Assembly: GCA_003218375.1 (NCBI GenBank)
Contig: QHNH01000014.1
Coordinates: 1-64,000, forward strand
Direction of reading: 5' to 3'
From: Verrucomicrobiota bacterium
GTDB taxonomy: Bacteria; Verrucomicrobiota; Verrucomicrobiia; Chthoniobacterales; UBA10450
Length of the DNA: 64,000 nucleotides
Shown: positions 11,396 to 62,662 of the stretch, piece after piece
How the letters are laid out: every line of letters begins with the position of its first letter
How positions within the stretch are numbered: position 1 is the first letter of the stretch
Made by a program: the position numbers and the translations under genes
The notes under the pieces: generated by a model
What the model was told of the DNA's origin: nothing
What the model saw: the letters and a program-made list of their open reading frames with translations, nothing else
Databases searched by the model: none

Positions 11396-11481
11396 GGACG
11401 CCTTTCCGAGGCGTCCGACTAATCTGGGATTGAGTGATGTTCGGGAGAAGAGTCGGACGGCTCGGAAAGCCGTCCCCACCT
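11390..11481. repeat. Family C bipartite palindrome (AGGTAGGGACG...CGTCCCCACCT)
   Basis: AGGTAGGGACGCCTTTCCGAGGCGTCCGACT ... AGTCGGACGGCTCGGAAAGCCGTCCCCACCT; overlaps the adenosyltransferase TAG stop. Confidence 0.88.
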
Positions 11482-11552
11482 ATGGAGAAAGCCTAATATT
11501 CCGTTTGCCTTTGAGCACCTGCTAGAGCATCTTCCCCGCTCCCGTTTTACCT

Positions 11553-12291: not shown

Positions 12292-12292
12292 G

Positions 12293-12377
12293 GTTGAGGG
12301 GTTGAGCAGTTGAGAGGTTGAGAAGACCTTCGCGCTCGGTATCCTCTCAACCGCTCAACTTCTCAACCATTCAACCG
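12293..12377. repeat. Inverted octamer array: four direct TTGAGnnG units, then four inverted units
   Basis: TTGAGGGG TTGAGCAG TTGAGAGG TTGAGAAG ... CTCTCAAC CGCTCAAC TTCTCAAC CATTCAAC. Confidence 0.85.
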
Positions 12378-13016: not shown

Positions 13017-13104
13017 TCGGAGGGACGTGCTTCTGCACGTCTGTCGCGCTGTTTGGCGCGGCGCCGATCCGAGAAGTCGGACGTGCAAAAGCACGTCCTT
13101 CCGA
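13017..13104. repeat. Family B bipartite palindrome (TCGGAGGGACG...CGTCCTTCCGA)
   Basis: TCGGAGGGACGTGCTTCTGCACGTC ... GGACGTGCAAAAGCACGTCCTTCCGA, 4 nt after the tsf stop. Confidence 0.87.
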
Positions 13105-14941: not shown

Positions 14942-15178
14942 ATGAAGGTCAAAGTCGTCGTGACGCCGAAGGCCGCGGTGCTCGATCCTCAAGGAGCGGC
15001 AGTGCGCGACGCGATGCAGCATCTCGGGATGCCGGAGGTGCATTCGGTGCGAATCGGGAAATATCTCGAGATCGAAGTTGATGATAAGACGCCGAACCTG
15101 GATTCGCGGCTCAACGATCTTTGCCGCGATCTGCTTTCAAATCCGGTGATCGAAGACTACGAGGTCGTAAAGAGTTGA
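14942..15178 (+). CDS. purS: Phosphoribosylformylglycinamidine synthase subunit PurS
   Basis: 78 aa, MKVKVVVTPKAAVLDPQGAAVRDAMQHLG; adjacent to purQ. Confidence 0.92.
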   Translation: MKVKVVVTPKAAVLDPQGAAVRDAMQHLGMPEVHSVRIGKYLEIEVDDKTPNLDSRLNDLCRDLLSNPVIEDYEVVKS

Positions 15179-15206
15179 GAGGTTGAGGGGTTGAGAAGTT
15201 GAGAGG
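15172..15206. repeat. Direct octamer array TTGAGAGG TTGAGGGG TTGAGAAG TTGAGAGG
   Basis: Begins at and overlaps the purS TGA stop (15176-15178). Confidence 0.75.
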
Positions 15207-15221
15207 AGAAGAGGCTGACCA

Positions 15222-31248: not shown

Positions 31249-31331
31249 TCGGAGGGACGGGCTTCCGCACTTCCCACTCTTTCGGTCTCACGCTGAATGA
31301 AAGTGGGACGTGCGGAAGCCCATCCCTCCGA
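31249..31331. repeat. Family B bipartite palindrome
   Basis: TCGGAGGGACGGGCTTCCGCAC ... GTGCGGAAGCCCATCCCTCCGA between convergent genes. Confidence 0.9.
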
Positions 31332-45318: not shown

Positions 45319-46812
45319 TTACCGCTTCGGCTTGAGCAGCGGAAACAGGATCACATCGCGGATCGATTCCGCGCCGGTCAGGAGCATGACCAGCCGGTCG
45401 ACGCCGACTCCGAATCCGCCGGCGGAGGGCATGCCGTGCTCGAGCGCGAGAAGGAATTCTTCGTCGAGCTTTTGGGTTTCTTCGCCGGCCTGTTCGAGCA
45501 GGCGCTGCCGTTGCACGATCGGATCGTTCAGCTCGGAATAACCGGGCGAAATCTCCTGGCCGTTGATGATCAGCTCGTAGACATCCACGAGCGAGTCGTC
45601 TTCCAGATTCTGCTTCGCCAGCGGCACCAGCTCCTTCGGGCAATGGGTGACGAAGAGCGGGTCGAACGTTTTTTCTTCAACCAGCTTTTCGAAAACCTGC
45701 TGGGTCACTTCGTAGTCCGCCATCCGCGGATTGATCTCGACACCCAGCTCGCCGCAGCGCTCCCGCCGTTTCTCAGTCGTGTAATTGAACCATTCCGGAT
45801 CGACCTCTCGAATCAGATCGCGATACCGCGCCCGCCGCCACGGACGGGTCAGGTTGAGGGTGCGCGTGACGTTTCCTTCGGCGTCCTTGTGCTCGATTCG
45901 GAGGGACGAGCTTCCGCTCGTCCCATTTGTCGGACCTGCGGAAGCCGGTCCCTCCGAGATGATCATCGCCAGATGACAAATCATTTCCTCCACGAGATCT
46001 GCGATCTTCTCGAAATCGGCGTAGGCCCAGTACGCTTCGAGCATGGTGAATTCCGGATTGTGTTTCCGGGAGATGCCTTCGTTCCGGAAATTTCGATTCA
46101 ATTCGAAGACTTTGTTGAAGCCGCCGACGAGGAGCCGCTTGAGATAAAGCTCCGGCGCGATGCGCAGATAAAGCTCGAGCCCGAGCGCCTTGTGATGGGT
46201 GCGGAACGGTTCCGCCGCGGCGCCGCCCGCCACCGCCTGCAACATCGGCGTTTCCACTTCCAGAAAACCTTTCGCCTCCATGAAGCGCCGGATCTCGCGC
46301 ACGATCGCGATCCGTTGCTCGAACACATTTCTCGAATGCTCGTTCGTGACCAGGTCGAGATAGCGCTGGCGATACCGCGCCTCGACGTCCTGGAGCCCGT
46401 GCCATTTTTCCGGCAACGGCCGGAGCGCTTTTCCGAGCAGTTCGAGTTTGTGAACCTTCAGCGTCAGTTCGCCGGTTTTGGTGAGGAAACAGTCGCCTTC
46501 GACGCCGATGAAATCGCCGAGATCGACGAGCTTGAAACGCTCGATCACTTCGGGGCCGACTTCTTTCGCGTGGATGTAAACCTGGATGCGTCCCGTCGAA
46601 TCGCGCAGGTCGACGAAATGGCTTTTCCCCATGTCGCGATGCGCCGTGATCCGGCCGGCGGCGCGCAACGTTGTGCCCTCGGCAAATTTTTCGCGCACCT
46701 CCCCGATGCCGCCGGACGTTTCGAAGCCGCGGCCAAACGGATTCGCCCCGCTTGCCTGGAGCGCCTCGAGTTTTTCGCGCCGTTGCGCGATGAGATTGTT
46801 TTCGTCTTCCAT
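45319..46812 (-). CDS. lysS: Lysyl-tRNA synthetase, class II (carries a candidate in-frame repeat insertion)
   Basis: KHNPEFTMLEAYWAYADF, GFGVGVDRLVMLLTGAESIRDVILFPLLKP. Confidence 0.96.
   Translation of the reverse strand: MEDENNLIAQRREKLEALQASGANPFGRGFETSGGIGEVREKFAEGTTLRAAGRITAHRDMGKSHFVDLRDSTGRIQVYIHAKEVGPEVIERFKLVDLGDFIGVEGDCFLTKTGELTLKVHKLELLGKALRPLPEKWHGLQDVEARYRQRYLDLVTNEHSRNVFEQRIAIVREIRRFMEAKGFLEVETPMLQAVAGGAAAEPFRTHHKALGLELYLRIAPELYLKRLLVGGFNKVFELNRNFRNEGISRKHNPEFTMLEAYWAYADFEKIADLVEEMICHLAMIISEGPASAGPTNGTSGSSSLRIEHKDAEGNVTRTLNLTRPWRRARYRDLIREVDPEWFNYTTEKRRERCGELGVEINPRMADYEVTQQVFEKLVEEKTFDPLFVTHCPKELVPLAKQNLEDDSLVDVYELIINGQEISPGYSELNDPIVQRQRLLEQAGEETQKLDEEFLLALEHGMPSAGGFGVGVDRLVMLLTGAESIRDVILFPLLKPKR
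45898..45957. repeat. Family B element inside lysS (60 nt)
   Basis: TCGGAGGGACGAGCTTCCGCTCGTCCC...GGAAGCCGGTCCCTCCGA; same termini as 13017, 31249 and 51747. Confidence 0.88.
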
Positions 46813-47465: not shown

Positions 47466-47577
47466 GCGGAACATAGACTTTTAGTCTGTGAGCCCAGCAG
47501 GCTTGTAGCCTGCTGAATCCTGCGGCGCGGCGGACAACATGTCCGCTGGGCGCACAGGCTGAAAGCCTATGTTCCGC
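47466..47577. repeat. Family E full bipartite palindrome
   Basis: GCGGAACATAGACTTTTAGTCTGTG ... CACAGGCTGAAAGCCTATGTTCCGC with two internal hairpins. Confidence 0.88.
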
Positions 47578-51450: not shown

Positions 51451-52935
51451 TTGGAATCGCCGATCGTAAGCGCCGCCGCGATGCGAGCGGCGGAAGAAGC
51501 CGTGTTCGCGAGCGGTGTCGAGGTGGAAGCGCTGATGGATCGCGCCGGCGCCGGCGTGGCCGCGGCGGTGCGGCAGTTTTTTCCCCGAGCCGGCAGGGCG
51601 ATTGTTTTTGTCGGGAAAGGTCATAATGGCGGCGACGCGCTGGTGGCAGCAACGTGTCTCAAACAGGCCGGCTGGGAAATTGATCTGCGGCTGATTTTTC
51701 CTGAGTCGGATTGCGCGGAACTGACGCGGAAGAAACTTGGCGACTTTCGGAGGGACGAGCTTCCGCTCGTCGACGGACTCGCCGCGGCGAGTCCCTCCGA
51801 TTTAATCGTCCTCGACGGGTTGCTGGGTCTCGGCGCGAAACATCTGTTGCGCGAGCCGGTGCGGACCGCGGCCCAGGAAATCAACCGCCTTCGTCGCGAA
51901 CAAAACGCGTTCGTCTTTGCTGTTGATCTGCCGACGGGCCTCGATGGCGACACCGGCGAGACCGATCCCGATTGCGTGGCAGCCAATTGCACGATCACGA
52001 TTGGCTTCGCCAAACATGGCCTCGTGATCGATGGCGCGATCGATCTCGTGGGCCGCCTCGAGATCGTCGCGCTCCGCGACGTGGTCATCGCGCCGTCGCC
52101 GGCCAATGACCTCGTGGCCTGCGCTCATTCGCTCCGCGAGCTTTTGCCGCGCCGGAAATTCAGCGCCTATAAAAATGAATTCGGACGGATCGGAGTCATC
52201 GCCGGCTCGCCCGGATTTGTCGGCGCCGCGTTGATGACCACGGAAGGCGCGTTGCGTGCGGGAGCAGGTCTGGTGGAACTGTTCGTTCCGCGAGATATTT
52301 ATTCGATCGTGGCGGCGGCGGCCCCAGCGGAAGCGATGGTCAAACCGGTCCGATCTTATCGCGATTTGCTCGAGGAAAAAATCGATGTTTGGGCGCTCGG
52401 CCCCGGCCTGGGCAAAGCGGAAGCGAAAGATCTTCTGAAAGTGATCGAGCGCGCTCCGGCCCCGATGGTGGTCGATGCCGACGGGTTGAACATTCTTTCC
52501 GACGAGGTCGAGATTTTGAAACGGTGCGCCGGGCCGCGTCTCCTCACGCCGCATCCTGGCGAAATGAAACGGCTTTTCGATCCTGGAAAAATGTCACGAG
52601 CCGGGACGGCGAAGAATTTCACCGACTCGTTTCCAGTGACGCTGCTGCTCAAGGGCGCGAGAACAATCGTTGCCGAACGGGGCCATCCGCTGAGCTACAA
52701 TTCGACGGGCAATCCCGGAATGGCGACCGGCGGAATGGGCGACGTCCTCACTGGGGTTTGCGCCGGATTGATCGGGCAAGGTCTTTCGCTTTACGACGCG
52801 GCCCGAGTCGGCGCGTGGAGTTGCGGTCGCGCCGCGGAGATCGCGATTTTCGAGCACGGCGAAAGCGAACAATCGCTGCTGCCGCGCCATGTGACCAAAA
52901 ATCTCGGTCGCGCTTTTGGGGAACTTCTTCTGTAG
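51451..52935 (+). CDS. nnrD: Bifunctional NAD(P)H-hydrate epimerase/ADP-dependent dehydratase (carries a candidate in-frame repeat insertion)
   Basis: YjeF_N FVGKGHNGGDALVAA; kinase-like domain ALGPGLGK, DADGLNIL, LTPHPGEM, NPGMATGGMGDVLTG. Confidence 0.92.
   Translation: MESPIVSAAAMRAAEEAVFASGVEVEALMDRAGAGVAAAVRQFFPRAGRAIVFVGKGHNGGDALVAATCLKQAGWEIDLRLIFPESDCAELTRKKLGDFRRDELPLVDGLAAASPSDLIVLDGLLGLGAKHLLREPVRTAAQEINRLRREQNAFVFAVDLPTGLDGDTGETDPDCVAANCTITIGFAKHGLVIDGAIDLVGRLEIVALRDVVIAPSPANDLVACAHSLRELLPRRKFSAYKNEFGRIGVIAGSPGFVGAALMTTEGALRAGAGLVELFVPRDIYSIVAAAAPAEAMVKPVRSYRDLLEEKIDVWALGPGLGKAEAKDLLKVIERAPAPMVVDADGLNILSDEVEILKRCAGPRLLTPHPGEMKRLFDPGKMSRAGTAKNFTDSFPVTLLLKGARTIVAERGHPLSYNSTGNPGMATGGMGDVLTGVCAGLIGQGLSLYDAARVGAWSCGRAAEIAIFEHGESEQSLLPRHVTKNLGRAFGELLL
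51747..51800. repeat. Family B element inside nnrD (54 nt)
   Basis: TCGGAGGGACGAGCTTCCGCTCGTCGACGGACTCGCCGCGGCGAGTCCCTCCGA. Confidence 0.88.
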
Positions 52936-53008
52936 CCGCTTCGCTATGCGAAGCGCGAGATGAATCTACGCCGCACGCCACGCCGCCCATAGGGCGGCGG
53001 CTACAGAA
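52928..53008. repeat. Family A bipartite palindrome; supplies the nnrD stop codon
   Basis: TTCTGTAGCCGCTTCGCTATGCGAAGCG ... CGCCGCCCATAGGGCGGCGGCTACAGAA; TAG at 52933-52935. Confidence 0.9.
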
Positions 53009-53010
53009 GA

Positions 53011-61317: not shown

Positions 61318-61402
61318 GGACGCTTTTCCGAAGCGTCCGACTTCTTGTAGGTCAGCGCCTAACAAGGAAACAGTCGGACGCCTCGGAAAGGCGTCCCTAC
61401 CT
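61314..61402. repeat. Family C bipartite palindrome between convergent aroB and amidase; supplies both stop codons
   Basis: TTAGGGACGCTTTTCCGAAGCGTCCGACT ... AGTCGGACGCCTCGGAAAGGCGTCCCTACCT. Confidence 0.9.
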
Positions 61403-62662
61403 ATTGGTCTTGTAATACTCGACTAATCCATCCACCACGCCGTCGGCGTATTCGCGATAGATGCTGGGACGCTCGACGCCGTTGATCGCCCGCATTCCTT
61501 CGTAGTCGCCCGCCTGGATTCGCGCGAAGACGTCGCTGCTATTCATCACGTAAGGCTCGAAGTAAACGACCGGACATCGGTAGAGGCGTGTCGCCACGAG
61601 ATTCCGCGAGTAGACATAACCGCTCGTTCCCACCTTGGTCGCGTTGTCCGTCGTGTATTGATAGGGCGGCAGGCCGGTCTTTTTCGCCATCGCCACGGCG
61701 GCCGCATCCGCGATCTGGATTTCCTCGTCGTAAGAGCGGCTGAGCAGGCGCTGCAACATTTCGAAGCGTTCGTCGTCGAACTCAATTTCGGAAGACGAAT
61801 ACGATCCATTGACCAGGAGATGGAGATGATTCACATCGGTAAGGGTAGGATTGCGTTCGTCGCCCCACGCTTCGGCGTTGAAATGCAGACAGAGCACGAG
61901 ATCGGGGCGCAGCTTCGAGTTCACGCGCCGAGCCCGCTCGCGGATTTCGCTGGTGCGATAAAACAGGATCTCGCTTTGCCAGCGCACCGTTTGTTCTTTG
62001 AGCGGATCGTCCGGGGCCTTGAATTCTTCCGGCGGATTCTCGGTCCCGCTGGCCTTGAGCATCGCGCGCGCGGCTTCTCTGAAATCGTCGGGGCGGAACG
62101 GCGTGACCGGCTCCGTTTTGGCGCGCACGAAGGAAACACGCGCACCCAGCTCGCGCAATTTCTCGGCGAGCAATTTCGCCACCTTCAACGTCATCTCGCC
62201 TTCCTCGACGGGCGCGGCGTCGCCTGATTTGAACCAGCGCTCTTCCATCTTCGCCCAGGCGCCGCCGATGTGGCCGGGATCGAGCGCGATTTTCAATCCG
62301 GAAAGAAGGCCGGCTTTTTTCCGTCGAGGCAACGCATGCGCGGCGCGCCATCCGAGCGGAGGAGCTTGTCGAGTTCGCCCCGCAGTCGCAAAGCGCAGGG
62401 TGAACCAGCTCTGCGCGTCCCGATCCAGGAGAATGCACGCCGCATCGGGATCAACCCGGATGAACTCTTCGCTGATTCCATGGGGGCAGTAGACGCGGCG
62501 GAGCAGTTGCTCGAACTCGTCGTGGGTAATCGTTTTCTGGAATTTCGCGAGCGCCTTCCAGTTTGGCGAATCAGCCAGGGGATTGCTGAGGTGATCCGCG
62601 GCGCGAGCACGGAAGCAGAACAAAAGGGAGACGGCGAGGACAAGTGGAAGGCGGAAGATCAC
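61397..62662 (-). CDS. N-acetylmuramoyl-L-alanine amidase-like secreted protein
   Basis: LKIALDPGHIGGAWAKMEER...EGEMTLKVAKLLAEKLRELGARVSFVR; LCLHFNAEAW. Confidence 0.8.
   Translation of the reverse strand: MIFRLPLVLAVSLLFCFRARAADHLSNPLADSPNWKALAKFQKTITHDEFEQLLRRVYCPHGISEEFIRVDPDAACILLDRDAQSWFTLRFATAGRTRQAPPLGWRAAHALPRRKKAGLLSGLKIALDPGHIGGAWAKMEERWFKSGDAAPVEEGEMTLKVAKLLAEKLRELGARVSFVRAKTEPVTPFRPDDFREAARAMLKASGTENPPEEFKAPDDPLKEQTVRWQSEILFYRTSEIRERARRVNSKLRPDLVLCLHFNAEAWGDERNPTLTDVNHLHLLVNGSYSSSEIEFDDERFEMLQRLLSRSYDEEIQIADAAAVAMAKKTGLPPYQYTTDNATKVGTSGYVYSRNLVATRLYRCPVVYFEPYVMNSSDVFARIQAGDYEGMRAINGVERPSIYREYADGVVDGLVEYYKTNR

Follow-up and report, generated by a model that had tools for sequence, protein, structure and literature searches.

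A segment of nnrD in the 64,000-nt stretch of DNA analysed here (the window) is very probably a compact REPIN of a dispersed repeat family, family B, spread by a REP-associated tyrosine transposase (RAYT) and tolerated in a permissive, disordered protein loop without a function of its own. An earlier sequence-only reading had described an in-frame element of 54 nt, or 18 codons, within the YjeF_N half of the gene; the sequence, coordinates, length, ends, encoded peptide and domain position that it gave were all correct (Table 1).

The element consists of two head-to-head REPs with the layout TCGGAG-G-GACGAGC-TTCC-GCTCGTC, a 3-base gap, then GGACTCGC-CGCG-GCGAGTCC-CTCCGA. The CTCCGA end of REP 2 pairs with the TCGGAG of REP 1, and the variant arm of REP 2 is also present in another copy in the genome. 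The third base of F99 is the first base of the element, and codons 100–117 encode RRDELPLVDGLAAASPSD, followed by LIVLDGLLG. When folded computationally as DNA, the 54-mer formed a three-way cruciform of −19.9 kcal/mol with a modest z-score of −2.86; inverted REPs with a short spacer that fold as a single hairpin or cruciform are the structure of a REPIN.

Table 1. Coordinates in the window of the nnrD element, its host gene and further family-B copies.
Feature	Position	Strand	Description
nnrD, bifunctional NAD(P)H-hydrate repair enzyme	51451..52935	+	494 aa; YjeF_N residues 26–190, Carb_kinase residues 248–471
Family-B REPIN, two head-to-head REPs, in frame in nnrD	51747..51800	+	54 nt; residues 100–117 plus base 3 of codon 99
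REP 1	51747..51771	+	TCGGAG + stem GACGAGC (51754–51760), loop TTCC, stem GCTCGTC (51765–51771)
REP 2, variant arm	51775..51800	-	stem GGACTCGC (51775–51782), loop CGCG, stem GCGAGTCC (51787–51794), end CTCCGA
Companion family-B REPIN in lysS	45898..45957	-	60 nt, 20 codons, in frame; frame differs from nnrD copy
Full-size family-B REPIN	13017..13104	.	88 nt; no frame across it with coding signal on both flanks
Full-size family-B REPIN	31249..31331	.	83 nt; extragenic

The window contains nine occurrences of the 11-mer TCGGAGGGACG with ≤1 mismatch against 2.55 expected, a number reached in none of 100 shuffles. Across the genome under study (G000; 3.96 Mb in 52 contigs), 81 exact matches to the 11-mer were counted and none to its reversed control; the 24-nt REP pattern occurs 135 times with ≤3 mismatches, compared with once for the reversed control. 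The window shuffle test and the genome counts together place the nnrD element far beyond chance. Matches to the 11-mer at L111, L091 and L134 form no hairpin and were taken as chance.

The ∼135 REP units are grouped in ∼67 elements, the majority of them extragenic inverted doublets of 75–105 nt. From 63 stretches taken from the genome, mostly of ∼4 kb, 131 units were read, and the GGAG tag and 8-bp stem hardly vary among them: position 5 is an adenine in all 131, and positions 3, 4 and 6 are guanines in at least 128. The stem pairs are 91–99% paired, and pairs 11-22 and 12-21 covary, with pairing retained through G-C, A-T, T-A and C-G types. The linker length, which is normal for Verrucomicrobiota, would suit an ordinary variable part of NnrD that is palindromic by chance; we give this reading practically no weight, as it is refuted by a family of ∼135 units with covarying stems against a single control match.

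According to the coding-score call, 57 of the 67 elements are extragenic. Family B thus resembles REPINs in being dispersed, high in copy number and mostly extragenic, with the nnrD copy as an exception to the last. At ≤2 mismatches, 113 units were found in G005, from the same genus, 96 in G016, 47 in G025 and 24 in G028; at this threshold the other families of the order gave no family-B units, except for seven GTAG-tagged matches in G058.

Judged by hexamer coding scores of the two flanking sequences, ten of the 67 elements lie within genes, every one of them in frame; this census covers the examined stretches rather than every decayed copy. The genes are lysS, nnrD, dnaX and those for an E2 acyltransferase, an FAD oxidoreductase, a CDP-alcohol transferase and a DUF5996 protein, together with three named from their sequence rather than from a family scan (a GT39-like membrane protein, a xanthine-dehydrogenase-like protein and a DCC/HTTM-like protein). 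Elements at L101, L107, L128 and L137 and the first at L120 were excluded from the count, the frames there looking antisense or end-of-gene. The FAD oxidoreductase element (L113 1999–2052) codes for SRRDELPLVQGRAEARPSE, with peptide and frame nearly as in the nnrD of G030, from another genus.

The in-gene copies occur in both orientations and use all three reading frames (SEGRASARP, RRDELPL and GGTCFRTS), so it is the DNA that is conserved rather than the peptide. The sequence-only reading had argued for mobile DNA from the different frames of the nnrD and lysS copies; these frames do differ, with lysS on the opposite gene strand, and the genome-wide palindrome search and frame analysis that it proposed gave a dispersed family read in all three frames. 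Its argument is further supported by the mostly extragenic dispersal and by a transposase gene flanked by the family (below). That the palindrome is instead a coding sequence retained for its peptide is highly improbable: translation in frame in core genes would suit such a role, but against it stand the three frames and two orientations, the orthologues that lack the element or have other sequences at its place, and a loop predicted at very low confidence, as expected of a disordered one.

In-gene elements range from 26 to 85 nt and are more compact than the others, with a median of 53.5 versus 83 nt (Fisher p = 0.0009 for lengths <70 nt, a cut picked after seeing the data). A stop-codon filter was considered as the full cause of the short in-gene doublets and is only a partial one, long doublets still being open in 72% of frames. 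None of the six frames of the REP arm contains a stop codon, a property that would help copies to survive in frame.

A candidate transposase was located by scanning the loci around family-B elements. The gene, of ∼150 codons, lies on the minus strand of contig C40 (L120 2097 to ∼2555; C40 ∼88077–88535) between family-B doublets at L120 1999–2088 and 2556–2618, one of which is ∼9 nt away. The MPNHVH motif is present in its product, which matches the NCBIfam model NF047646 (REP-associated tyrosine transposase) at 89.5 bits, above the cut-off of 80, but not Pfam. An associated RAYT gene with the same REPs on either side is a further property of REPINs, and on the basis of these flanking repeats the C40 RAYT is likely the mobiliser of family B.

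Proteins matching PF01797 (Y1_Tnp) were also considered as the family-B RAYT; there are 12 matches in the genome, and none of the 11 loci checked was flanked by family B. Likewise, 30 RAYT loci from eight relatives showed no near family-B flanks. The remaining RAYTs of G000 have their own, different REPs: GTAGCCGCTTCGCTATGCGAAGCG at L041, GGAGACGGCCTGCCCTCAGGCCGT at L038 and L040, GTAGAGGCGCTTGTGCCAAGCGCC at L039 and GTAGCGGCGGTCTATGACCG at L042. A second REP family, CTGTAGCCGCTTCGC...GCGAAGCGGCTACAG (D1, D4), occurs in the window between 22603 and 53010, for example at the end of nnrD (52925–53010), and is the one that flanks the L041 RAYT.

Other repeats were also noted in the window. A 55-nt repeat with two small palindromes (2265–2319 and 47522–47576; 82% alike) is possibly a further repeat family, and a 36-nt repeat around GTCGGACG.CTCGGAAAG.CGTCCC (11448–11483 and 61369–61404; 89% alike) may represent a separate hairpin family. 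At 12292–12325 and 15173–15214, 8-mers resembling GGTTGAGG are repeated in short tandem arrays.

Comparison of nnrD among relatives revealed a variety of sequences at the position of the element. G005 and G006 have decayed relatives of the G000 element, and G030 has a near-perfect family-B element ≤3 codons from the same place. Other palindromes occupy the loop elsewhere: TGGCATCGGCATCTTGCCGATGG... in G003, G024 and G012 (shortened), GTGGGAGGGGCCTTAGTGCCCC... in G016, GTGGGAGCCCCGAAAG... in G001 and G004, and a decayed CTGTAGCGGCAGCC...-like palindrome in G010, G028 and G034. Genome-wide counts, which cover the G003 and G016 types and not the G001/G004 and G010 types, gave 15 copies of the former in G003 (including that in nnrD) and just two, at 3 mismatches, in G000; the latter has 52 copies in G016 and one in G000. 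The nnrD site looks like a protein site that is tolerant of DNA parasites.

Two fixed NnrD motifs lie 59 residues apart in G000; the distance is 51–57 residues where a relative shows no clear palindrome, and the linker residues of these relatives are unrelated. In most other phyla it is ∼67 residues. Equal length across phyla, part of what would have contradicted the sequence-only reading, was not found. Its 54-nt in-frame element stands; a simple addition of 18 codons does not, the relatives' linker having nearly the same spacing. Orthologues without the segment, which it had proposed to look for, exist for other genes (below), but the nnrD orthologues compared include no clean element-free site, and so the insertion itself is not visible in nnrD. 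Since linker length barely changes and the residues are unrelated, the element occupies the position of ordinary linker and either replaced linker sequence or was trimmed after insertion.

In the corresponding stretch of nnrD from G011, G029 and G023 (L071, L073 and L074) there are 58–60 residues. Those of G011 and G029 match the N-terminal part of TIGR02243, a putative baseplate assembly protein (E = 4.7e-7 and 5.2e-11, respectively; far below the whole-protein cut-off), as though nnrD had taken up a piece of such a gene.

An AlphaFold model of NnrD (13 homologues) had a mean pLDDT of 83.5, with residues 105–115 as the sole segment below 50. These residues form the loop between helix 90–101 and strand 118–123 of YjeF_N, and on this model the loop derived from the element is most likely harmless. 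A role for the hairpin itself within the gene, in pausing, stability or gyrase binding at the mRNA or DNA level, is very unlikely; the element does fold into a cruciform and intergenic REPs have been assigned such roles in publications, but its counterparts in G005 and G006 show decay, and still other relatives lack one.

In lysS, a short turn (VCG or similar) is present in G007 and in 15 aligned species outside the genus, while the loop contains family B in G000, a GGAGGGCGGAGCTCC palindrome in G005 and G006, and a GGAGGGACGCGCTCCGTCGCGTCC-like palindrome in G004 and G002; the GGAGGGCGGAGCTCC palindrome also occurs elsewhere in the G005 and G006 genomes at low copy. For the FAD oxidoreductase and the CDP-alcohol transferase, the element is common to G000 and G005 and absent from G006 and G003, and that in the DCC/HTTM-like gene (L088) is absent in G005 and G006. 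The DUF5996 gene has one family-B REP in G000, another palindrome at that position in G005, and neither in G003 and G006. In GT39, the loop that carries family B in G000 carries another palindrome in G005, G006 and G003, with a GTAG hairpin in addition in G003. Judged by eye from the alignments, the net gain compared with the element length was 15 of 20 codons in lysS, 8 of 11 in DUF5996, 15 of 28 in the CDP-alcohol transferase and 17 of 18 in the FAD oxidoreductase.

A tree of two genes with the loops removed gave (G001,(G006,(G000,G005))) apart from G003, G007 and (G004,G002). Several events are required in lysS on this tree: the ancestral turn persists in G007, whose relatives are filled, and the family in G000 differs from that in its sister G005. 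The lysS history supports recurrent occupation, which may have come about by fresh insertion or by exchange.

By exchange we mean that an ancestral REP in the loop was later replaced by other REP families, whether by recombination, by template switching or by a RAYT cutting at the REP already present, so that the loop would act as a standing slot and not as a site of fresh insertion. We regard exchange as possible though unlikely. Different palindromes share one loop in nnrD, lysS, DUF5996 and GT39, the lysS GGAGGGCGGAGCTCC element is common to G005 and G006 while G000, the sister of G005, has family B, and the net length of nnrD is nearly unchanged. However, the ancestral lysS turn of G007 among filled relatives favours separate insertions, permissive loops are limited in number, so that some independent hits on the same loop should recur, and the tree is built on two genes. 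As a rough argument for caution, only a few hundred tolerant loops per genome and several active REP families would lead to repeated independent hits on one loop. The broader proposal that some protein loops are standing REP slots, where a resident REP attracts or templates replacement by other families and the loop is rewritten repeatedly within this lineage, seems to us rather doubtful.

Our preferred reading remains that of a RAYT-spread REPIN in a tolerant loop. Family-B elements would be non-autonomous DNA, spread most likely as single-stranded DNA by a RAYT that recognises the GGAG-tagged hairpins, with the C40 gene as the candidate; the nnrD copy would likewise have arrived by transposition. 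In-gene copies would persist only in permissive loops and with an open frame, and in nnrD the product would be a disordered surface loop, most likely without its own function.

These observations extend in-frame intragenic REPs to a GGAG family with its own candidate transposase in an uncultured lineage of Verrucomicrobia, and mark mobile DNA as a source of new loop sequence for core enzymes. The orthologous loops of nnrD, lysS, DUF5996 and GT39, with their different REP families, provide a set for telling fresh insertion from replacement; it is their recurrent occupation that most merits further attention.

Among known systems, REPINs and RAYTs (Bertels and Rainey 2011, PMC3116915; Nunvar et al. 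2010, PMC2817692; also PMC3686654 and PMC8266576) are matched by family B in its inverted REP doublets, short spacer, high copy number and RAYT flanked by the same REPs. The differences are that the family-B tag is GGAG, whereas GTAG-tagged REPs are defined by GT(A/G)G at the stem foot (PMC3686654), that the nnrD copy is intragenic and that copies within genes are shorter. As reviewed in PMC10969869, Rickettsia palindromic elements (Ogata et al. 2000, 2002) are selfish palindromic DNA translated in frame in unrelated genes, the first reported being ∼150 bp. Family B is also palindromic and translated in frame inside unrelated genes; compared with the Rickettsia elements, it is shorter (26–85 nt in genes), is read in three frames rather than as a conserved peptide, and is tied to a RAYT.

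A further precedent is that of Di Nocera et al. 2013 (PMC3733652), who described intragenic in-frame GTAG and CGTC REPs, often coding for 20–30 residues, in genes that include those of tRNA synthetases; the GTAG type was most numerous in Opitutus terrae (Verrucomicrobia). Family B was not found described there. The same paper remarks that recB of two Xanthomonas species has different REPs at about the same site, which was the sole match in the papers searched for same-site REP occupation. Family B is likewise in frame in known genes, a tRNA synthetase gene included, but differs in its GGAG tag and in showing the same-loop pattern with different families in several genes of one genus. The kind of element is thus already known; what the present analysis contributes is the GGAG family and the multi-gene occupation of the same loops.
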